The notes beneath the pieces were generated by a model. It saw only the letters and a program-made list of their open reading frames with translations. It made no database searches and was not told the origin of the DNA. From a bacterium (lineage in GTDB: Bacteria; UBP6; UBA1177; JAKLFG01), in contig JAKQHE010000171.1 in NCBI GenBank assembly GCA_029573155.1, positions 1 through 42,440 of the forward strand: 42,440 nucleotides of DNA. Reading direction: 5' to 3'. Shown piece after piece: positions 29,898 to 42,095 of the stretch. Made by a program: the position numbers and the translations under genes. Each line of letters begins with the position of its first letter. Position 1 is the first letter of the stretch.

Positions 29898-31628
29898 ATG
29901 GACTGGAAAACGGTAGCGTTCGAGGTCTGCGGCGGTCTCGGCCTGTTCCTCATGGGCATGCATATCCTGTCGGAGGGCATGCAGAAGGTCTCGGGCGACC
30001 GTCTCCGCAGGATACTCGGCTTCCTCACACAAAATCGCTTTATGGCGATCTTCGTCGGGCTTTCCATCACTTCGGTCATCCAGTCGAGTTCGGCCACCAC
30101 CGTCATGGCGGTCGGCTTCGTCAACGCGAGCCTGCTGTCGCTCGAACAGGCGATCGGCGTCATCCTCGGCGCCAACATCGGCACCACCATCACCGGCTGG
30201 CTCGTGTCGCTGTCGATAGTACAGTACGCGATGGTCATCATCGCCGCCGGCGTCCTTCTGAAGTTCATCGGGCGAAACGAAACGGTGCGCTACAGCGGCG
30301 AGGCGATATTCGGACTCGGCATCCTGTTCCTCGGGATGAACCTCATGAGCGACGGTCTGGCCCCTCTGCGCGATGACAAGGAGTTCGTTTCCTTCTTCAC
30401 CAAGGTCGACGGCCGCACCTACTCCAGCGTATTCATCGGGGTTCTCATCGGCACGGTGGCGACGGCCCTTGTCCAGTCGAGTTCGGCAACGCTCGGCATC
30501 ATCATCGCGCTGGCCTCACAGGGGCTGCTTTCCTTCCCGGCAGCCATCGCGCTGGTGCTCGGCACCAATATCGGCACCACCGTCACGGCACTGTTAGCGA
30601 GCATCGGGACCAATTACCACGCTAAACGGGCCGCCGCCGCGCATATCTTGTTCAATTTCTTCGGGGTCATCATCGTCCTCATCGTCTTCTACCCCTTCCT
30701 TCGCATGGTCGACCTCTTCCTGCCGGGCGACCCCGACATGGTGATACGGACCGCTGAAGAGGCGGCGAAGTACGGTTTCGGCATCGGCGCCAAGCCACTG
30801 GCCGGCGTCCATATCGCGCTCGCCCATTCGCTGTTCAACATCACCAATGTCGTCATCTTCACCCCGCTCATCGCCTTCCTCGCCTTCGTCGTGAAGAAGA
30901 TAGTTCCTGAACCGAAGGCGAAACTGCCCAAGACGCCGCATCAGTTCGCCCACATCCACTACGGTCTCATCGCGACCCCCGCGCTGGGTATCATAGAGTC
31001 GGAAAAGGAACTCTATGCCATGGCCGAACGGGTCAAGAAGAACTCGAAGCGCATCCGCGATATCCTCGGCGGAAAACGGGAAGCGGGCACAGCGGCCGAG
31101 AAGATAGAGAAGAACGAAGAACTCATCGACGAATACCGCATGGCGATCACCGAGTTCCTCCTGTCGCTGGCGCAACGTTCGCTGTCCCGCGAAGACGCGG
31201 CGAAGGTCGGCAATTACATCACCTGCGCTCACAACCTCGAAAAATACGCCGACTATGTCACCAACATGACCCGCGTTTACCTGAAGATGAAGAGTGACAA
31301 CCTCGTCCTCTCCGATGCAGCGCGCACCTCTCTGCAAGATATCGTAAATGATATCGAGGAGTTCTACGAATCGACCATAGTCCCGTTGAGCGGGGTCGAG
31401 GTTGACGCAAAAAATTTCCTCGCTACGGCAACGATGCGTAAAAAGGAGATAAAGGATCGTATCCGCGCCGCGAAGATGGGCCATTTCCAGCGGCTTCAGG
31501 AAGGAACCTGTAGAGGAGAGGCTTCTATGTCCTATATCGATATCCTCGTCAATGTCGACGGCATGGTCTCGCAGGTCCACAATATCGCCGAAACGCTCAC
31601 GCTCTCCAAATTCTCGGGTATCGCCTGA
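29898..31628 (+). CDS. Na/Pi cotransporter with C-terminal PhoU-like domain (copy 1)
   Basis: 576 aa; ATG 29898 follows GAGGCGGGG. Two inverted Na_Pi_cotrans halves each carry the signature QSSSAT (62-67 and 193-198), each followed by a GxNIGTT loop (GANIGTT, GTNIGTT). About eight to nine membrane helices extend to residue about 345. A helical PhoU-like domain (about 365-565: ESEKELYAMAERVKKNSKRIRDIL, ITCAHNLEKYADYVTNM) fills the C-terminus. Known: such NptA/YjbB-like proteins move phosphate with sodium, inward or outward, and the PhoU part is thought to regulate. The Pho-box-like repeats upstream fit control by phosphate. It forms a tandem pair with the next gene. Confidence 0.92.
   Translation: MDWKTVAFEVCGGLGLFLMGMHILSEGMQKVSGDRLRRILGFLTQNRFMAIFVGLSITSVIQSSSATTVMAVGFVNASLLSLEQAIGVILGANIGTTITGWLVSLSIVQYAMVIIAAGVLLKFIGRNETVRYSGEAIFGLGILFLGMNLMSDGLAPLRDDKEFVSFFTKVDGRTYSSVFIGVLIGTVATALVQSSSATLGIIIALASQGLLSFPAAIALVLGTNIGTTVTALLASIGTNYHAKRAAAAHILFNFFGVIIVLIVFYPFLRMVDLFLPGDPDMVIRTAEEAAKYGFGIGAKPLAGVHIALAHSLFNITNVVIFTPLIAFLAFVVKKIVPEPKAKLPKTPHQFAHIHYGLIATPALGIIESEKELYAMAERVKKNSKRIRDILGGKREAGTAAEKIEKNEELIDEYRMAITEFLLSLAQRSLSREDAAKVGNYITCAHNLEKYADYVTNMTRVYLKMKSDNLVLSDAARTSLQDIVNDIEEFYESTIVPLSGVEVDAKNFLATATMRKKEIKDRIRAAKMGHFQRLQEGTCRGEASMSYIDILVNVDGMVSQVHNIAETLTLSKFSGIA
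30996..31060 (+). repeat. 65-nt segment identical to 32849-32913
   Basis: An exact direct repeat within the PhoU-like part of the tandem phosphate transporters. A second exact repeat of 61 nt pairs 31215-31275 with 33068-33128. Third-position differences are frequent elsewhere between the two genes. Confidence 0.85.
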
Positions 31629-31644
31629 ATACCGGAGCGAGAAA

Positions 31645-31660
31645 TTAACCGTTTTTTAAC
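31645..31660 (+). promoter_or_regulatory. Additional Pho-box-like repeat pair
   Basis: TTAAC at 31645 and TTAAC at 31656, 11 bp apart, between the tandem phosphate transporter genes. It stands 28 bp (start to start) upstream of the triple repeat at 31684, out of 11-bp phase with it. Confidence 0.4.
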
Positions 31661-31683
31661 AATCCCCTCCCTCCATTTAGTTG

Positions 31684-31716
31684 CTAATCCTTCCTTAAAC
31701 ATGTATCAACGGAACG
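31684..31716 (+). promoter_or_regulatory. Pho-box-like operator of the second phosphate transporter
   Basis: CTAAT (31684), TTAAA (31695) and TCAAC (31706), again at 11-bp steps. It aligns base for base with much of 29831-29867 (TTGCTAATC, CTTAA, GTAT, AACGGAA). The last unit lies 45 nt before the start codon. A -10-like TTATCT is at 31724-31729. Confidence 0.55.
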
Positions 31717-31750
31717 CTGACCCTTATCTGACAGAAGAGTGGAGAGACAT

Positions 31751-33484
31751 GTGGACTGGAAAACGATAGCGTTCGAGGTCTTCGGCGGACTTGGTCTGTT
31801 CCTTCTTGGCATGAAGATCATGTCGGAAGGCATGCAGAAGGTCGCGGGCGACCGGCTCCGCAAGGTACTTGGCTTCCTGACACAGAATCGCTTCATGGCG
31901 ATATTGGTCGGCATGACGGTCACGGCGGTCATCCAGTCGAGTTCGGCCACCACCGTCATGACCGTCGGGTTCGTCAACGCGCAACTCATGACCCTCACGC
32001 AGGCGATCGGCGTCATACTCGGCGCCAACATCGGCACCACGGTCACCGGCTGGCTCGTGTCGCTCGCGGTGGTCAAATACGCGATGGTCATCATCGGTAT
32101 CGGCGTCCTGTTGCGCTTCGCCGGTCACAACGAGACTGTTCGCTACAGTGGCGAAGCGATATCGGGACTCGGCCTGCTCTTTCTCGGCATGACCACGATG
32201 AGCGACGGACTCGCCCCTTTGCGCGACAGCCCCGGGTTCGTCCATTTCTTCACCATGGTCGACGGGGTGACCTACCCCAGTATCCTTCTCGGTGTCTTCA
32301 TCGGCACGGTGACCACCGTAGCGGTCCAGTCGAGTTCGGCCACCATCGGTATCGCCATCGCGCTCGCCACGCAGGGCCTGCTCACTTTTCCCGGCGCGGT
32401 CTCACTGATATTGGGCGACAACATCGGCACCACCATCACGGCGCTGTTGGCGAGCATCGGGACCAATCACCACGCCAAACGGGCCGCCTTCGCCCATACG
32501 ATGTTCAATGTGTTCGGCGTTGTCATCATCCTGATCATTTTCTTTCCCTTCGTCGCGCTCGTGAACACCTTCATCCCGCAGGACGCCGATCTGACGATAC
32601 GGACCGCCGAGGAGGCGGCGCGCTACGGCATGGCGATCGGCGCGAAGCCCTTCATCGGGCCCCATGTAGCCATGGCCCACACCATGTTCAATGTCACCAA
32701 CGTCATCTTCTTCACGCCGCTTATCGGCTTCCTCGCCTTTATGGTCAGGAAGATAGTGCCCGAGCCGAAGGCGAAACCGTCAAAGGGGGTCCGCCAGTTC
32801 GTTCATATCCATTACGGGCTGGTCGAAACACCTGCTTTGGGCATCCTTGAGTCGGAAAAGGAACTCTATGCCATGGCCGAACGGGTCAAGAAGAACTCGA
32901 AGCGCATCCGCGACATCCTCGGCGACAAACGCGACGCAGGCGTGGCAGCCGAAAAGATAGAGAAGAACGAGGAACTCATCGACGAATACCGCAAGGCGAT
33001 AACAGAATTCCTGCTCTCGCTCTCCCAACGGTCATTGTCGCGCGAGGATGCCGGGAAGGTCGGCAACTACATCACCTGCGCTCACAACCTCGAAAAATAC
33101 GCCGACTATGTCACCAACATGACCCGCGCCTACCTCAAGATGAAGAGTGACAACCTTATCCTTTCCGACGCGGCGCGCACCTCTCTGTACGATATCGTGA
33201 GCGACATCGAGGAGTTCTACGAAGCGACCATCGTCCCGCTCAGCGGCGTCGAGGTCGACGCGAAGAATTTCCTCGCCACCGCCACGACGCGCAAGAGGGA
33301 GATAAAGGAACGGGTGCGTGCCGCCAAGATGGGACATTTCGAGCGGCTGCAGGCAGGCACCTGCAAGGGAGAGGCCTCGATGGCCTATGTCGATATCCTC
33401 GTCAACATCGACGGCATGGTCTCACAGGTCCACAACATCGCCGAGACGCTCACGCTTTCGAAGTTCTCGGGAACCTCCGCGTAA
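31751..33484 (+). CDS. Na/Pi cotransporter with C-terminal PhoU-like domain (copy 2)
   Basis: 577 aa with GTG 31751 as start: the codon aligns with the ATG of copy 1 (both continue D-W-K-T) and GGAGAG is at 31741-31746. The GTG at 31739 would make the ribosome site coding. It has the same two QSSSAT signatures and GxNIGTT loops, and a PhoU-like tail almost identical in sequence to copy 1, with two DNA stretches of 65 and 61 nt fully identical. The membrane half is more diverged. It has its own Pho-box-like operator, so the copies can be expressed separately. Converges on sppA with an 8-nt gap. Confidence 0.92.
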   Translation: MDWKTIAFEVFGGLGLFLLGMKIMSEGMQKVAGDRLRKVLGFLTQNRFMAILVGMTVTAVIQSSSATTVMTVGFVNAQLMTLTQAIGVILGANIGTTVTGWLVSLAVVKYAMVIIGIGVLLRFAGHNETVRYSGEAISGLGLLFLGMTTMSDGLAPLRDSPGFVHFFTMVDGVTYPSILLGVFIGTVTTVAVQSSSATIGIAIALATQGLLTFPGAVSLILGDNIGTTITALLASIGTNHHAKRAAFAHTMFNVFGVVIILIIFFPFVALVNTFIPQDADLTIRTAEEAARYGMAIGAKPFIGPHVAMAHTMFNVTNVIFFTPLIGFLAFMVRKIVPEPKAKPSKGVRQFVHIHYGLVETPALGILESEKELYAMAERVKKNSKRIRDILGDKRDAGVAAEKIEKNEELIDEYRKAITEFLLSLSQRSLSREDAGKVGNYITCAHNLEKYADYVTNMTRAYLKMKSDNLILSDAARTSLYDIVSDIEEFYEATIVPLSGVEVDAKNFLATATTRKREIKERVRAAKMGHFERLQAGTCKGEASMAYVDILVNIDGMVSQVHNIAETLTLSKFSGTSA

Positions 33485-33492
33485 ACGGGCCC

Positions 33493-34476
33493 CTATTCTC
33501 CGTTGAACAGCGGCCAGAGGTAGTAGAAGCCGGCCGGTATCGAGTCGCGCCCCGCAAGCGAGATGTTGACGAGGTGCGGCACCTTCATCCCCTCGGGGCG
33601 GACATTGTTGTTGTAGTAACTGTCGTTCGGGTAGTAGGTGCGACGATAAACGACCACCTGCGCGTCGACGCCGACCCCCGCGGCCTTTTTCGCCGCGACG
33701 GTCGCCTCGTCGAGATACCCGATATCGTCGATAAGCCCAAGTTCTTTCGCTTTTCTCGGCAGGAAGACCGCCGCCGTCCTGACCTCGTTCATGGCCGCCT
33801 CGCTCACCTTCCGATGCTTGATCACCTTGGCGTAGAAATCGGCCGCCAGTTCATCCACGATGTTCTGGAAGAACGCCTTCTCCTCCGGCGTCGTAGGGAC
33901 GAAGGGAGACCCGGTATCCTTCGCGTCACCCGATTTGTCGACCTCGACCGACACCCCGATCTTATCCATGAGTCCATGCAGTTTAGGTCGCATGAACACG
34001 ACGCCGACCGAGCCGGTGACGGTCGAAGGATGCGCGACGATACGATCGGCCGGTAACGAGATAAAGTAGCCGCCGGATGTCGCCATGTTCATCATAGCCA
34101 CGACCACCTTCTTGCCCGACCGCTCCTTGAAACGGAGTATCTCGTGGTAGAGCATGTCGCTCGCCGTCACGGTGCCGCCCGGCGTGTCCACGACGAGCAG
34201 TACACATCTCACCGCATCATCGGACTCGGCGAGTGCCAGTTGGGCGACGGTATCCTGCACGACGCTCGGGAGCGAACGCAGAAGCCCCTGTTCCGGCTGG
34301 TCGGTGATCATCCCCTGCACACGGATGAGCGCTATCTTCTGCTTGCCGGCACCTTCAAGAACGAATTCACGGAACGGGTCGCTTCCGTCGCTGAAGAACT
34401 TCACCTGTGTCTGGAAACAGCCCGTCAAGATCAGTGTCAGGAAAAAGGTAACGACCGACCATCGAAGATAACGCAT
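33493..34476 (-). CDS. sppA: Signal peptide peptidase SppA, 36-kDa type, with lipobox
   Basis: 327 aa from ATG 34476, behind GGAGG with a 6-nt spacer. The N-terminus ends in LILTGC (Cys20), a lipobox, so the protease may be lipid-anchored rather than held by a helix. The S49 catalytic pair is present: Ser134 (NMATSGGYF) and Lys186 (GDAKDTGSPF). They are 52 residues apart, the same as Ser147/Lys199 of Bacillus SppA. VVDTPGG and GSVGVVF are also typical. Known: it degrades leftover signal peptides and some membrane peptides. The many lipoproteins here would supply substrate. Last gene of the glmS operon, 43 nt after the cNMP-binding gene. Confidence 0.9.
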   Translation of the reverse strand: MRYLRWSVVTFFLTLILTGCFQTQVKFFSDGSDPFREFVLEGAGKQKIALIRVQGMITDQPEQGLLRSLPSVVQDTVAQLALAESDDAVRCVLLVVDTPGGTVTASDMLYHEILRFKERSGKKVVVAMMNMATSGGYFISLPADRIVAHPSTVTGSVGVVFMRPKLHGLMDKIGVSVEVDKSGDAKDTGSPFVPTTPEEKAFFQNIVDELAADFYAKVIKHRKVSEAAMNEVRTAAVFLPRKAKELGLIDDIGYLDEATVAAKKAAGVGVDAQVVVYRRTYYPNDSYYNNNVRPEGMKVPHLVNISLAGRDSIPAGFYYLWPLFNGE

Positions 34477-34519
34477 GAACAGCCTCCGTGGGATGGGTCC
34501 GCCGGATCGCGACGACCGG

Positions 34520-34966
34520 TCAGACCTCGTTGTCACTCTTGTTCTTGACCAATTGTTTCGTCAGGTTGCGGATGCGCCGGTTGAGCACCTTGATGATGCC
34601 GATGGCCACCTCGTCGCGCTGTTTCATGATCTCGTAGAAATCGTCGCGATCTATCTTGAGCAGCGTCACATCGCTCAGCGACACGACATCGGCCGAACGG
34701 GGTTGCGAGTCCAGTATCGCCATCTCACCGAAATAGCCGCCCTGCCGGATGGTATCTATCTTGCGGTCGCCCGATACGACATCCACCTCTCCCTTCACGA
34801 TGATGAACAATTCCCTTCCCAACTCGCCCTCGTGGACGATATAGGTACCACGGTCCATCGTCACCTCCTCGATGACGAACGCGATGTCGGCCAGCACCTC
34901 GCCCGGAATGTCGCTGAACAGCTCGACATTCTTGAGCGCGAGTACCTTTTCAACCGTCGTAAGCAT
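34520..34966 (-). CDS. Cyclic-nucleotide-binding domain protein
   Basis: 148 aa from ATG 34966, preceded by GGGAGGGCGATCCC. A single CAP-type cNMP-binding fold covers nearly the whole protein. The phosphate-binding cassette is intact: FGEMAILDSQPRSADV (79-94), with Glu81 and Arg90 in the positions that contact the cyclic nucleotide. No DNA-binding helix-turn-helix follows, so it is not a transcription factor. The start lies 17 nt inside the end of the NTT/HEAT transporter gene in a different frame. Inference: a ligand-sensing regulatory subunit for that transporter. Which nucleotide it binds is unknown. Confidence 0.88.
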   Translation of the reverse strand: MLTTVEKVLALKNVELFSDIPGEVLADIAFVIEEVTMDRGTYIVHEGELGRELFIIVKGEVDVVSGDRKIDTIRQGGYFGEMAILDSQPRSADVVSLSDVTLLKIDRDDFYEIMKQRDEVAIGIIKVLNRRIRNLTKQLVKNKSDNEV

Positions 34967-37808
34967 GGGATCGCCCTCCCGTTCCATCAAAGGTGATCTG
35001 ACAGCCGGCGGCCTTGTACCACGCCGCGTAGCTCGAAACATTCTTGGCGCCGTCGCTGAGCAGGAAATTCACATCGTCGTCGGAGACCGACGTACCGAGC
35101 CGCATCGCGGCGAACAGGGCCGATTCACGGACGAGCGGCGACGGATCGTACAGGAACAGCATGACCTTGTCACCCATCTCGACGACCTCTTCCACCGCGA
35201 TGAGGTGCAGGGTCACCGCGCGCACCCAATCGTTGTCGTCGGTCAGGAATATCTCAAGGATGTGCTGGTACTCTGGGGTCTTTATCTTGAACGCGGCGAA
35301 GCCCTGCGCGAGTTTCTCCTGCTCGTCTATCGCTTCGATGAGCGGCACGAGCACGCGCCGGATATCCTTGTCGACGATGTTGTCGACCAGTTCGACCGCT
35401 GTCGAGCGCTGTTCTTTCGAAACATAGCGCTGAGAGATGTTGAAATAGATGGAATCGAAGAGTTTCTGGCCGTACATGATGGAAAGGAGCGAGAATATCC
35501 GCTGGAGGCACGAGAGCAGTTTGGTGTCTATCACATCGGAAAGATAGGACAGATCGGTCTTTGCCCGCATGGATGACTTATAGTAAAGCTGCTGGAAATA
35601 CAAGTAGAATTCGCGGAACAGGTGCCGCCTGAGGGTCTCCTGACTGATGAGGACATGGTAATCGGTGCGCATCATGATACGCTTGAGACTTTCGAGCAGG
35701 ACATTGCGTAGTTCGTCAGATTTATCGCCCAGATTGTCCATGAGTACCGGAATGACCTCGCGCGAGGATATCTCGCCAAGCATCTTGGCGACCGCCATTT
35801 TGAGTTCGAAATTCTCGAGCGCGTTATCCAGAACGCTCTTCGCCGGCTCGATGATGCGCTCGCCGAAACCGGCCAACGCCTTGGACACCTCGAGACTCAC
35901 CGGTTTATCGAGCAACATGAAGAACAGTTTCGGTATGAAGACCTCTGACCGCATCTTGGTCGTCGCCTTGACCGCCTCGCGGCGTACCTGCGGGTCACGA
36001 TCGCTTAAGAACTCGAACACCTGTTGCTGCATGTTCTGCTGACCGATCTCGCCGAGGATATAGGCCGCCGCGACGCGCCGTTCGGGATCGGGCGATTCGG
36101 CCAACTGCTTGAGGTACGGGGCCGCCGTCATAATGCCCGATATGCCGCAGTATTTGATGAGCGCGATGACCGCCGCCGAGAGTATCTGCAGGTTCGGGTT
36201 CTCGAGGAAGGTCGCTATGTACCGGTGCGACTTCTCCATCTGCATGTAGCCGTAGGTCAGTATTGCATCCTTGAGCACCTCGTCGCTCCCGCTCTTCATG
36301 AGTTTGAGTATCTCGAAAGTGTAGAAACGGGACTCCATGGTCCGCAGGATGCGCAGTATCTTGGTCTTTATCTTGGGAGAGACATCTTCGGACAGGAGCG
36401 GCAGGAAATAGCGACCGAGATAGAAATAACGCCCTTTTTCTATCATGTCGAGCGCCATGAGCACTTCGTCGTCGTTCTCTGAGGTCATCGCCTCGACGAT
36501 GATGGATTCTATCATGTTCTGCCGAACGGTCACATCTTCGTTACCGAGCCGTTTCTTTTTGATGTTATCCTGCAGGACGAGAAGGTATTCTTTCCGAAGC
36601 AGGAGTATCGTGGTTATCCACGCCGCACCAAATATGACGACGACGATGCTGATGAAACGGTGATCGACCCCAAGGTAGGTCATCCCGTAGATGGCGAGGC
36701 CGGCGACGCCGGCGATGAGTGGCTTGAGGATGCCGTCTATCACCGCCTTGGCACGGCTCCGCAACTTGGGGTCGACCGGGATGTAGAGCAGTTGCACCGC
36801 CGCGTCGTTCACGGTGTAGCGGAAGGCGAAATCAGAGGCGCGCGCCATCGTGATGAACCAGATACCCGGTATCAGGAAGAACATCGCCGAGAACCCGGTG
36901 ATCATCGCGGGCAGGATGAGCAGACTCAGGAATATGCTCCAGCGCAGGAGCCACGAGGTGGCGATGAGTTGGAAGAACAGCGAGAAGAAGCCGCTCGCGA
37001 AGGCGTAGACCATGCCGAAGAACCCCGCCAGTTCCTTTTCCGAGAAATGCTCCCTCGCCTCCATCTTGAACTGGTAGTCCACGAAGTTCACGATGATAAA
37101 GGTGACGACGGTCACCAGAGCGATATAGCGGAAATAGGGCTGGGTGAAAAGACTTACCGGCGCGTGTCTGGCGGTCTTCTGGACCGACCGTATCACGACG
37201 CTCCGCTGGAGTTTTGACTTGTAGGTCTCCCCCATCCGGCGCACGAGGTAGAGGCACAACACCATGAAGAGCGCGTTGATGAACAGCAAGTTCTCGACCT
37301 TGACCAGATGGACGAGCCACTTGACCGAATAGCCGGCCACGAGGCTCGCGATGATGCCGCCGATGCCTATGAAACTGAGTATCCGTTTCGCCTCGCGTGA
37401 GTCGAGCAGTTCGTTGGTGAACGACCAGAATTGGAAGGTCATGAAAGCGCCGATGACCTCGACGAGGATGTAAAGTCCCGGATAACTGAACTGGAATCCG
37501 ACATGGATGAGCCCGATGAACACGACGGTGAGCGAGATGCTCAGGAACAGGATGGTGCTGATGAGGGTATCGAGCCGGTATAGCGAACTGCGCCGCGTGT
37601 AGAGCCAGGTGAGCATCGAAACGCTTGCGGCGACAAAGATGTACATGAGCGGCAGTTGCGAGACATCGTACCGTTTCAGGAACAGCGTATCGCGGACGAT
37701 GCGGCCCTGCACATAGGTAGCGACGACGAGGAAATTGTACAGGAACAGGAGCCCGGCGCGGGTCTGCTCCTCCTCGCGGATGTTGAACAACCGGTAGATG
37801 AGCTTCAT
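34950..37808 (-). CDS. NTT-family (ATP/ADP translocase-like) transporter fused to a HEAT-repeat domain
   Basis: 952 aa. Residues 1-410 have about eleven to twelve hydrophobic helices, with features of the nucleotide transporter (Tlc/NTT) family: an N-terminal REEEQTRAGLLFLYNF segment, and RASDFAFRYTVNDAAVQLLYIPVD followed by KAVIDGILKP. Residues about 425-940 are soluble and helical, with HEAT-like pairs (DDEVLMALDMIEKG, SPDPERRVAAAYILGEIG, DRDPQVRREAVKAT, PSPLVRESALFAAMRLG). Known: NTT proteins exchange ATP/ADP in intracellular parasites and plastids; versions with HEAT repeats occur in free-living bacteria and their cargo is not settled. The start overlaps trmL by 4 nt and the end overlaps the cNMP-binding gene by 17 nt. 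Confidence 0.85.
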   Translation of the reverse strand: MKLIYRLFNIREEEQTRAGLLFLYNFLVVATYVQGRIVRDTLFLKRYDVSQLPLMYIFVAASVSMLTWLYTRRSSLYRLDTLISTILFLSISLTVVFIGLIHVGFQFSYPGLYILVEVIGAFMTFQFWSFTNELLDSREAKRILSFIGIGGIIASLVAGYSVKWLVHLVKVENLLFINALFMVLCLYLVRRMGETYKSKLQRSVVIRSVQKTARHAPVSLFTQPYFRYIALVTVVTFIIVNFVDYQFKMEAREHFSEKELAGFFGMVYAFASGFFSLFFQLIATSWLLRWSIFLSLLILPAMITGFSAMFFLIPGIWFITMARASDFAFRYTVNDAAVQLLYIPVDPKLRSRAKAVIDGILKPLIAGVAGLAIYGMTYLGVDHRFISIVVVIFGAAWITTILLLRKEYLLVLQDNIKKKRLGNEDVTVRQNMIESIIVEAMTSENDDEVLMALDMIEKGRYFYLGRYFLPLLSEDVSPKIKTKILRILRTMESRFYTFEILKLMKSGSDEVLKDAILTYGYMQMEKSHRYIATFLENPNLQILSAAVIALIKYCGISGIMTAAPYLKQLAESPDPERRVAAAYILGEIGQQNMQQQVFEFLSDRDPQVRREAVKATTKMRSEVFIPKLFFMLLDKPVSLEVSKALAGFGERIIEPAKSVLDNALENFELKMAVAKMLGEISSREVIPVLMDNLGDKSDELRNVLLESLKRIMMRTDYHVLISQETLRRHLFREFYLYFQQLYYKSSMRAKTDLSYLSDVIDTKLLSCLQRIFSLLSIMYGQKLFDSIYFNISQRYVSKEQRSTAVELVDNIVDKDIRRVLVPLIEAIDEQEKLAQGFAAFKIKTPEYQHILEIFLTDDNDWVRAVTLHLIAVEEVVEMGDKVMLFLYDPSPLVRESALFAAMRLGTSVSDDDVNFLLSDGAKNVSSYAAWYKAAGCQITFDGTGGRSHAYDG

Positions 37809-38278
37809 GCCGCCCCTCCCGGCGCACCGAAGCCGTTCTGGCGAAGCGCCTCGAACAGCACCACCGCAGCGGAACTCGACAGGTTGAGACTCCGCACCGC
37901 AAGATTGCTCATCGGGATGTGGAAGGTGCGGTCGGCGTGGAGCGCGAGCACCGCAGGATCTATCCCGCGAGACTCGTTGCCGAAAAGGAACCAGTCGCCC
38001 GACCGATACTGATGCCGGTCATACCGGTGTTTGCCCCGCGTCGAGAAGAAATGGAGTTTTTCGGCCGGGACCTGCGCCACGATATCGTCAAGACCCTCCC
38101 ACACCGTCAGGTCGATATCCTCCCAGTAATCAAGGCCGGCACGACGGAGGTGATAGTCGTCAAGTTTGAAGCCCAGCGGCTTCACGAGGTGCAGTTTTCC
38201 CCCGGTGGCGAGTATGCTTCGCCCCACATTGCCGGTGTTCGGCGGTATCTCGGGGCTGATGAGTACCAGATTGAACAT
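37805..38278 (-). CDS. trmL: tRNA (cytidine/uridine-2'-O-)-methyltransferase TrmL-like
   Basis: 157 aa from ATG 38278, the same length as E. coli TrmL; an adjacent ATG at 38281 would add one Met. SPOUT signatures: EIPPNTGNVGRSILATGG (N-terminal), PLGFKLDDYHLRRAGLDYW, FGNESRGI (SAM knot) and IPMSNLAVRSLNLSSSAAVVLFEALRQ. Known: TrmL methylates the 2'-OH of nucleotide 34 in certain tRNA-Leu species. It overlaps the glmS stop and the transporter start, so it sits inside one operon. Gene order here seems to reflect cotranscription rather than function. Confidence 0.93.
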   Translation of the reverse strand: MFNLVLISPEIPPNTGNVGRSILATGGKLHLVKPLGFKLDDYHLRRAGLDYWEDIDLTVWEGLDDIVAQVPAEKLHFFSTRGKHRYDRHQYRSGDWFLFGNESRGIDPAVLALHADRTFHIPMSNLAVRSLNLSSSAAVVLFEALRQNGFGAPGGAA

Positions 38279-40098
38279 CATTCCACCGTCACACTCTTGG
38301 CGAGGTTGCGGGGCTGATCGACATCGGTCCCCTTGTTGACCGCGACATGGTAACTGAGCAGTTGCAGAGGCACGATGTAGGCGATCGGTTCCTGCCACTC
38401 CGACATCGGCGGCATCGGGATGACCGCCTCGGCGATGTCTCCCGCCTCGTCGGAACCTTCGGTCGTCAGGAGCACGATGCGACCGTCGCGCGCCGCGACC
38501 TCCTTGAGGTTGCTGAACATCTTCCCCGCCATCGGGTTGGCGGGCATCACCGCGACGACCGGCAGGTTACGGTCGACAAGCGCGAGCGGCCCGTGCTTGA
38601 GTTCGCCTGCCGGGTACCCCTCGGCGTGGATGTAGGATATCTCCTTGAGTTTCAGAGCCCCTTCGAGCGCTATCGGGTAATTCATGCCACGCCCGAGGAA
38701 CAGGAAGTCGCTCGACCGGTAGAGGTCGTGCGCTATCTTTTCGATGCGGCCGCTCTCCTTCAGCACCGACTCGATGATCTCGGGCAATTCGGCGAGCCCG
38801 CGGATATGGACATGGACCGCGCTTTTGGCAAGTTGCCCCTTGGCGATGCCGACCTTGAGCGCGATGAGGTAGAGCATCACGAGTTGCGTCGTGAATGCCT
38901 TGGTCGATGCGACACCTATCTCGGGCCCGGCATAGGTAAAAAGCGTCGTGTCGGCCTCGCGCGCGATGATCGACCCGACCACATTGCAGACCGCCAGCAC
39001 CGGCACCTTGCGCTCTTTCGCGGCGCGCAGGGCCGCCAGCGTGTCGGCCGTCTCGCCGCTCTGGCTTATCACGATGACCAGATCATCGGGGGTGACGATC
39101 GGGTCGCGGTACCGGAACTCGCTCGCGAGGTCCACCTCGACCGGGACCCGGGCAAGTCCCTCGATATAATACTTGCCGACGAGCGCCGCGTGCCACGAGG
39201 TGCCGCAGGCGACAAGAAATATCTTTTTGCGCCCTTTGAAGAACCGGGTATCGCCATCGAACAGCATGATGTCGGCCTGCGCCCGGTTGAGCCGCCCGCG
39301 CAGGGTATCCATCACGGCGCGGTCCTGCTCGTTGATCTCCTTGAGCATGAAGTGGCGGTATCCCCCCTTTTCCGCCGCCCCGGCGCTCCAGTCGATGTGG
39401 TGTACCTTTCGCTCGACCTTTTTAAGTGACCGGTCCATGACCGTGACGCCTGCGCTCGTTAGCACCGCAATGTCGTCGTCCTCGAGGAACACGAAATCGC
39501 GGGTGTGCTTGAGCACCGCCGGAATGTCTGAGGCGGCGAAGCCTCCTTCGGACGACACGGCGGCGACGAGCGGCGAAGAGCGGCGCGCGAGGTATATCTC
39601 GCCGGGATGGTCCTCGTGAAGGATGGCGAGCGCGTAACTCCCCTCTATCATCGCGACCGCTTCGGCGAGCGCCTCGGGAACGCTCCCCTTGTAGAAATGG
39701 TTGATGAGGTGGGCGATGACCTCACTGTCGGTGTCGGAATAGAAGCCGTTCATCCCCTTCCCGGTGAGGTATTCGCGCAGTTCGAGGTAGTTCTCGATGA
39801 TGCCGTTGTGGACGAGCGCCGTTTTGCCCGACACATGGGGGTGTGCGTTTATCTCGGTCGGGCGGCCGTGGGTCGCCCAGCGGGTGTGGCCGATGACGGC
39901 GTGAGACGAGGGCTGGTCGGCGCCGACCTTCGCCTTAAGTTTATCAAGTTTACCAGCGGCCCGCTCGATAACGATGCGACCCTCATGGAAAAAGGCGAGG
40001 CCGGCCGAGTCGTAGCCGCGGTACTCAAGCCGTGAGAGTCCTTCGATGACCAGCGGTATCCCCTCGCCGGGTCCGGTGTAGGCCACGATGCCGCACAT
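38278..40098 (-). CDS. glmS: Glutamine-fructose-6-phosphate aminotransferase
   Basis: 606 aa, close to E. coli GlmS (609). It starts MCGIVAYTG, so Cys2 becomes the N-terminal glutaminase nucleophile. The GATase domain shows GHTRWATHGRPTEINAHPH. Two SIS domains follow (ISQSGETADTLAALR near residue 350, and one near 480), and the C-terminus is DVDQPRNLAKSVTVE, the fructose-6-phosphate site. The enzyme makes glucosamine-6-phosphate, the entry to peptidoglycan and LPS amino sugars. First gene of the operon, with a TTGCTT-16-TATAAT promoter. No glmS ribozyme is visible in the leader of about 27 nt, so control must differ from that of Firmicutes. Confidence 0.98.
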   Translation of the reverse strand: MCGIVAYTGPGEGIPLVIEGLSRLEYRGYDSAGLAFFHEGRIVIERAAGKLDKLKAKVGADQPSSHAVIGHTRWATHGRPTEINAHPHVSGKTALVHNGIIENYLELREYLTGKGMNGFYSDTDSEVIAHLINHFYKGSVPEALAEAVAMIEGSYALAILHEDHPGEIYLARRSSPLVAAVSSEGGFAASDIPAVLKHTRDFVFLEDDDIAVLTSAGVTVMDRSLKKVERKVHHIDWSAGAAEKGGYRHFMLKEINEQDRAVMDTLRGRLNRAQADIMLFDGDTRFFKGRKKIFLVACGTSWHAALVGKYYIEGLARVPVEVDLASEFRYRDPIVTPDDLVIVISQSGETADTLAALRAAKERKVPVLAVCNVVGSIIAREADTTLFTYAGPEIGVASTKAFTTQLVMLYLIALKVGIAKGQLAKSAVHVHIRGLAELPEIIESVLKESGRIEKIAHDLYRSSDFLFLGRGMNYPIALEGALKLKEISYIHAEGYPAGELKHGPLALVDRNLPVVAVMPANPMAGKMFSNLKEVAARDGRIVLLTTEGSDEAGDIAEAVIPMPPMSEWQEPIAYIVPLQLLSYHVAVNKGTDVDQPRNLAKSVTVE

Positions 40099-40814: not shown

Positions 40815-42095
40815 CTAGTAGGTGCGGGAGAACACCGTCTTCCCGCCGACGATGGTGCGGAACACCGCGCCGGTCACATGGAAGCCGTGGAACGGGGTAT
40901 TGCGGGAACGGGAGCGGAACATGTTCTTGTCTATCGTCCACTGGTAATCGGGCGCGATGAGCGTGAGGTCGGCCCGCTTCCCTTCGGCGATGACGCCACC
41001 TTCGATACCCAGTATGCCGTACCCGGCGGTGAACAGTTCGACGAACCGGTCGAAGGATATATGGCCCTCCTGTACCGTCTTGAGCAGGAGCGGCACCGCG
41101 GTCTCGAGCCCGACCATCCCCGACGGCGCGGTATTGAATTCGACATTCTTATCGCGCTCGTGGTGCGGCGCGTGGTCGGTCGCTATCGCGTCGATGGTGC
41201 CGTCCTTGAGCGCCGCGAGGAGTGCCTTGCGGTCACTCTCCGAGCGGAGCGGCGGGTTGACCTTGGTGTTGGTGTCGTACGAGCCGACCGCCTCGTCGGT
41301 GAGCGTCAAGTAATGCGGCGCCGTTTCGGCGGTCACCTTGACGCCGAGTTTCTTGAAGTGGGCGATCGTCTCGACCGCCGCCTTGGTGGAGACATGGCAG
41401 ATGTGGACCGGCAGGCCGAGATACTGGGCCATCAGGCATTCACGCGCCACAACGATGGATTCGGCGACCGACGGTATCGGCGGCAGACCGTAGAGCGTCG
41501 AGAAATAACTTTCGTTCATCTGGCCGCCTTTCGCAAGCGAGAGGTCCTCGGCGTGCGAGAGATAGGTCAGCCCGAAAGTGGCGGCGTACTGCATGACGCG
41601 GAGCAGGAGCGAACTGTCGCTTATCGGCTTGCCGTCGTCCGATATCGCCACCGCGCCCGCCTCTTTGAGTTCCCCGATGGGGGCCATGGTCTCGCCCTTG
41701 AGCCCTTTTGAGGCCGCCGCGACAGGGAACAGCCGCACGCCGTTACCTTCGGTACGCGCCTTTTTCAACTGGTATTCTATGGTGCCGATGTTGTCGCACG
41801 CGGGACTCGTGTTGGGCATCGTACAGACCGCCGTGAAGCCGCCGGCCGCCGCCGCTTCGAGTCCCGACACAAGGTCTTCCTTGTACTCGAAGCCCGGATC
41901 GCGGAAATGGACATGCATATCGATGAGCCCGGGTATGACCGACAGCCCGGTCGCGTCTATCGCCTCGGCGCCGGCGGCATTCATGTCGCCAGCCGCTATC
42001 TTCGTCACCACGCCATCCTCGATGAGTATCGAGCCGACGAAGCTCTTTCCGGCCCGCGGGTTGACTATCTTGCCGTTCCTGATGAGCGTTCTCAT
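40815..42095 (-). CDS. pyrC: Dihydroorotase
   Basis: 426 aa, type I amidohydrolase. Seen: the metal-binding signature [10 protein letters not shown] (His60, His62, with Arg64 as substrate contact), THE usual NTSPACDN-like strand ([10 protein letters not shown]), [20 protein letters not shown] and the catalytic [13 protein letters not shown] (Asp of TDHAP). The metal-bridging Lys of some families is not expected in this type. The enzyme closes carbamoyl-aspartate to dihydroorotate. The start overlaps the pyrB stop by 4 nt (ATGA), with GGGAGGATCG upstream. A classic pyrB-pyrC pair. Confidence 0.97.

Follow-up and report, generated by a model that had tools for sequence, protein, structure and literature searches.

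An NTT-HEAT membrane protein and a separate cyclic nucleotide-binding protein encoded side by side in an uncultured bacterial order: a candidate cAMP-responsive carrier

Gene organization of the locus

The stretch of DNA considered here, 42,440 nucleotides in length and referred to below as the window, contains a minus-strand run of genes in the order pyrC, an unknown ORF, glmS, trmL, NTT-HEAT, cNBD and sppA, with the first of these (40815-42095) being named pyrC on the basis of our own reading of its sequence. At the center of interest are two ORFs, namely, one (34950..37808, minus strand) predicted to encode a 952-residue NTT-HEAT membrane transporter-like protein, as assigned from the ORF, Pfam matches and a predicted structure, and a second (34520..34966, minus strand) encoding a stand-alone cyclic nucleotide-binding protein (cNBD) of 148 residues, as assigned from the ORF, its sequence and Pfam. 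The cNBD gene starts (ATG, position 34966) before the NTT-HEAT reading frame has ended, such that the two overlap by 17 nt, as had been noted when the sequence was first read. A longer in-frame cNBD start exists at position 35041 (173 residues), while the proteins of relatives all begin at MLT or nearby.

Upstream of the NTT-HEAT gene, a trmL-like SpoU methyltransferase ORF (37805..38398, minus strand; homology from residue 41 on) overlaps the NTT-HEAT start by 4 nt. Downstream of the cNBD gene lies a sequence encoding a sppA-like signal peptide peptidase (33493..34536, minus strand). Convergent with this sppA end of the operon are two tandem Na/Pi symporter genes (29898-33484, plus strand), each with a C-terminal PhoU domain. 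The genome from which the window derives, a draft of 2.69 Mb, encodes a single NTT.

Domains of the two proteins

The NTT-HEAT protein matched the Pfam TLC profile (PF03219; E 4e-13; 49.4 bits, the cut-off being 21), with the best stretch spanning residues 91-313, as well as HEAT_2 (E 6e-26). A structural model built from nine sequences, of medium confidence overall (mean pLDDT 74, with the HEAT part mostly above 80), presented 12 long membrane-type helices at residues 12-403 (36600..37775, minus strand), where the NTT domain is also supported by Pfam and profile matches, followed by some 26 short helices at residues 423-937 (34998..36542, minus strand), corresponding to a HEAT-repeat solenoid predicted to be cytosolic. 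Together, the Pfam matches and the modeled helices bear out the earlier description of an NTT-like membrane domain continuing into about 500 residues of HEAT-like helices. When the model was used in a fold search, HEAT, armadillo and similar helical-repeat proteins appeared among the 50 hits shown, of which PP2A PR65 was the best match; the same 50 hits offered nothing informative on the membrane domain.

With a profile match above the curated cut-off and 12 membrane helices, the protein falls within the PF03219 family. Its score against TIGR00769, the model for ATP/ADP-exchanging NTTs, was 50.9 bits and hence below the NCBIfam cut-off of 387.2. In a tree of NTT domains, single-domain NTTs were separated by a branch (SH-aLRT 97) from the NTT-HEAT proteins of the order to which the window's genome belongs. 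This grouping, together with the position of the HEAT repeats C-terminal to the NTT domain, assigns the protein to the NTT-HEAT subfamily described by Major et al. (2017; PMC5381601). Strong conservation of a signature peculiar to the membrane domain, made up of DYQF in helix 7, P300 and Y408, shows this domain to be under constraint. Polar residues specific to the class are also found within the helices, namely, D244-Y-Q-F, E117 (within the order), Q280, R330, R352 and K354.

The cNBD protein matched PF00027 (E 1e-22; 80 bits). Alignment of the pocket and inspection of the sequence located the phosphate-binding cassette FGEMAILDSQPRSA at 34691..34732 (minus strand), which reads FGE(81)MAILDSQPR(90)SA and so includes both the Glu (E81) and the Arg (R90). 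The description of a single-domain protein with an intact Glu/Arg cassette was accordingly upheld.

Split, fused and absent forms among relatives

The distribution of the gene pair was considered in 25 genomes of the same uncultured order. The NTT-HEAT and cNBD genes were adjacent in 24 of these, that is, in all 24 genomes encoding either protein, such that the pairing is not a matter of chance; the exception (G003), a genome that is 65% complete, contained neither gene. In each of the 24, the cNBD gene came directly 3' of the NTT-HEAT gene. The 17-nt overlap was restricted to the four pair-bearing genomes of the window's own family, with a short intergenic gap being found elsewhere in the order (8 nt at two loci that were read and 25 nt at another). 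As such, it is the adjacency that is conserved and not the overlap. The downstream sppA gene was likewise confined to the window's family, while trmL, which looks like a housekeeping gene and is probably unrelated to the pair in function, was the upstream neighbor in 20 of the 21 genomes of the order that can be judged. As regards clues to the cargo, no neighboring gene was shared across the distant loci, and trmL was the only constant neighbor within the order.

A second sample comprised 43 distant loci, 40 of which were fetched and three of which came from an earlier search for relatives. Approximately 16 of these encode an NTT-HEAT chain that itself contains one cNBD or two, 12-13 have a separate adjacent cNBD gene, two have such a gene nearby or in convergent orientation, and 12-13, or about a third, have no cNBD nearby. 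Fusion or adjacency was thus seen at about 28-30 of the 43 loci. Such fused chains, also described by Major et al. (2017), had been mentioned in the sequence-only reading, which proposed the survey of fused and split forms now completed and named a lack of linkage in relatives, or loss of the ligand-contact residues from most orthologues, as counter-evidence; neither was encountered. Indeed, the pocket Glu and Arg were retained in 23 of the 24 pair-bearing genomes of the order, the exception being G009, and in the fused cNBD copies in 18 of 19 (Glu) and 15 of 19 (Arg) cases. In the NTT-domain tree, the split pair of the order clustered with forms that are for the most part fused (SH-aLRT 92), and 14 changes were required to account for the fused, split and absent states, in line with the "multiple fusions and fissions" reported by Major et al. 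(2017).

A functional link between the cNBD and the NTT-HEAT protein is supported by the unbroken adjacency within the order, by fusions that recur in other lineages and by retention of the pocket in all but one genome of the order. Of the earlier proposal that the two parts are split but coupled, what stands is the relation between split and fused forms, along with the adjacency and the pocket. The split is also not unusual to the window's genome, since Major et al. (2017) already reported such an arrangement.

Two further groups of pocket variants were observed. Fused cNBDs at L095, L106, L109 and L114 have lost the pocket Arg, and that at L095 the Glu as well; the corresponding genomes encode many cyclases. 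In a subclade of NTT-linked cNBDs (L078, L082, L083, L088 and L090, from genomes G072, G356, G217, G184 and G085, respectively), the cassette reads xGxWALFD, with the pocket Glu being replaced by Thr, Ala or Val; a cyclase match was found in four of these five genomes, one being weak.

Cyclases and the likely ligand

The window's genome encodes class III cyclases in which catalytic residues are present; we read these as including the metal-binding Asp, Asn/Arg and a Lys/Thr pair of the kind usual in adenylyl cyclases. Across distant genomes, PF00211 was detected in 36 of 38 containing an NTT-HEAT gene, as compared to 197 of 323 others (Fisher p 8e-6), a difference for which genome size and kinship are confounders.

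A further pointer was offered by G009 (97% complete), where the cNBD pocket reads FGEMYLIDSQPSDAD, such that the Arg is replaced by Ser (PSDA). This was also the only near-complete genome of the order without a detectable class III cyclase (no PF00211). When G009 was searched with the 712-residue cyclase of its genus, only a paralogue matching the pre-catalytic part (to residue 505) was recovered and no catalytic part was found. Also missing from G009 was a 704-residue double-cNBD protein present in close relatives. The remaining cNBD of G009, found on a PP2C-like phosphatase, presents what we read as a pocket that is degenerate in this genus. The simplest reading is that G009 lost cyclic nucleotide signaling, after which the NTT-linked cNBD would have lost its ligand-binding Arg. 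The chance of such a coincidence of pocket and cyclase loss is about 1 in 24, and a single genome is involved. In another genome of the order (G012), the main 712-residue cyclase is absent and the Arg is retained, with only a 1272-residue protein with weaker cyclase-like domains being present.

The gene encoding DAC, the c-di-AMP synthase, was found in nearly all genomes of the order, G009 included, and so does not track with the pocket; c-di-AMP is accordingly disfavored as ligand. Taken as a single natural experiment, G009 points to a cyclase product, namely, cAMP, over c-di-AMP, and cAMP generated by a class III cyclase seems the best-fitting ligand. Cyclic nucleotide control would, at the same time, not be essential to the class, given that about a third of the distant loci have no nearby cNBD and that the Glu-less subclade mostly comes with a cyclase match.

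Two other types of cNBD protein were noted in passing. The 704-residue membrane protein mentioned above (L139 2050-4164, G013 C91) contains two intact cNBDs (PRTA) and is common to many genomes of the order, while L138 737-2038 and L146 383-1636 encode PP2C-type phosphatase-like proteins with a C-terminal cNBD, the pocket of which is without Arg.

A proposed mode of action

We modestly favor the idea that the pair represents the known NTT-HEAT-cNBD system in a form divided over two genes, with a cAMP-binding cNBD subunit that docks on the HEAT arch and alters transport by the NTT domain. The NTT domain would act as a 12-helix inner-membrane carrier, with the chain running on into a cytosolic arch of HEAT repeats. 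The small cNBD protein, as the counterpart of a cNBD that other bacteria carry fused at the C-terminus, would be a detachable regulatory subunit. Its ligand would be a 3',5'-cyclic nucleotide, with cAMP from the class III adenylyl cyclases of the organism being the most likely. Docking may occur at the C-terminus of the HEAT arch, this being the point of fusion to the cNBD in other lineages, and the change in the cNBD would then be relayed through the arch to the carrier, altering NTT transport. Binding of the two proteins to each other and gating of the carrier are what we infer, together with any direction of regulation and any cargo. When the two sequences were joined by hand into one NTT-HEAT-cNBD chain, with a single change of frame where they naturally meet, the predicted structure reached a pTM of 0.45, too weak for docking to be deduced. 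In the literature, no binding, transport or interaction data on any NTT-HEAT protein were found.

A wider version of this proposal, in which NTT-HEAT proteins are widespread cAMP-controlled carriers of a cargo other than ATP/ADP, with the sensor being fused or separate and its pocket being lost when cyclases are lost, is offered tentatively and appears somewhat less probable than not.

The transport site and other explanations

In AtNTT1, the tetrad K155/E245/E385/K527 is needed for ATP/ADP transport, with K155 mutants losing ADP binding and K527 mutants losing ATP binding (PMC3306366). Relying on these mutants and using the sequence of the plant structure (PDB 9j3j) as ruler, the corresponding positions in the window's protein were found to be Y56 (37641-37643), E117 (37458-37460), D244 (37077-37079) and A366 (36711-36713; all minus strand). 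The acidic pair is thus kept, while both lysines are missing. Across 63 NTT-HEAT proteins, position 155 was Lys in none and Tyr in 45, position 527 was Lys in two and otherwise not (61), position 385 was Asp or Glu in 55 and position 245 was Glu in 33. By contrast, two canonical-looking single NTTs (L118 and L119) retained all four residues. Because both lysines that serve ADP and ATP binding in AtNTT1 are absent, the cargo need not be ATP/ADP, and because they are missing in the class, the term 'nucleotide translocase-like' should not be taken to mean a nucleotide cargo.

These findings bear on a rival reading, in line with a suggestion of Major et al. (2017), of an exchanger of ATP/ADP or other nucleotides controlled by cAMP as an energy signal, with the positive charges moved nearby. 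Membership in PF03219 is consistent with such an exchanger, as are K362, one helical turn from A366 and invariant in the order, and R36/R39 in helix 1. Moreover, the microsporidian ThNTT1/3, which have I155 and so lack K155, still carry ATP and GTP (PMC4256464). These proteins are, however, listed as altered at three of the positions (155, 245 and 385), with 527 being unaltered, and K362 is Lys in only 11 of 41 distant NTT-HEAT proteins. Given also the near-complete lack of both lysines in the class, classical ATP/ADP exchange appears doubtful and a nucleotide exchanger of any kind unlikely.

Alternatively, the cNBD could be a receptor anchored by an NTT-HEAT protein serving as a non-transporting scaffold or sensor, with output to other proteins on the HEAT arch. 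Here, the class-wide loss of two members of the charged tetrad on which ATP/ADP transport depends, the match to PP2A PR65, HEAT solenoids being known to serve as binding scaffolds, and a histidine kinase or response regulator adjoining some loci would all fit. The constrained membrane domain and the class-specific polar residues within its helices nonetheless fit a working carrier better, leaving this explanation rather improbable. That the adjacency reflects mere operon convenience, with the cNBD working elsewhere, is most improbable, for although the trmL neighbor is nearly as conserved, it never appears in the fusions that join the other two parts in many lineages.

Relation to known systems

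The preferred reading, a carrier regulated by a cAMP-binding subunit, is not new in kind, with both the arrangement and the idea of cAMP control having been published by Major et al. (2017), who described NTT-HEAT-cNBD fusions as well as cNBD genes that follow an NTT-HEAT gene at a distance of several nucleotides. The window's pair is alike in domains, in their order and in having the cNBD directly downstream where not fused; it differs in coming from another lineage, an uncultured one, nearly all members of which have the split form. A search of the main text of that report turned up neither the loss of the tetrad lysines nor the joint loss of pocket and cyclase in G009. What is added here is that the lysine pair is missing class-wide, that the Arg and the cyclase are lost jointly in one genome and that the split form is nearly universal in the order. 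These additions raise the value of the pair as a test system and not its novelty.

AtNTT1 (PDB 9j3j) and a related carrier (PDB 9j3n) share a homologous membrane domain with the window's protein (profile E 5e-24 and 1e-22, respectively), yet these canonical ADP,ATP carriers are without HEAT repeats or a cNBD, and AtNTT1 has the full K/E/E/K set as opposed to the acidic pair only. The SthK channel and PKA/PKG contain a cNBD of the same family with the same phosphate cassette, serving as the regulatory module of a membrane protein or enzyme. There, however, channels or kinases are concerned and the cNBD is fused or on the regulatory chain of the kinase, whereas here it is a separate protein encoded beside a carrier.

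NTT-HEAT proteins occur widely, in many bacteria and in oomycetes. With the split form, the sensor can be obtained pure on its own and added to the carrier in a titration, while G009 yields a concrete prediction as to the ligand. In view of the missing lysines, the label of ATP/ADP translocase is best avoided for the class.

Other NTT arrangements

Further arrangements were seen among the distant loci. In two genomes of one family (L089 2397-7844 and L084 3641-9459), a single-domain NTT, an Omp85/POTRA outer membrane barrel and an NTT-HEAT protein are encoded in a same-strand run, with the barrel having been tested against Pfam in L089 and assigned by position and a similar start in L084; this run hints at transport across both membranes. 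At L077 1678-6934, L078 2108-6786 and L083 1-4387, a gene for a single-domain NTT lies upstream of the NTT-HEAT and cNBD sequences, abutting in L078 and L083, and the two NTT proteins possibly form a paired carrier. Finally, L112 2261-4777 (minus strand) is an 838-residue open frame in which the NTT domain is C-terminal (residues 427-826), such that the usual order is reversed.
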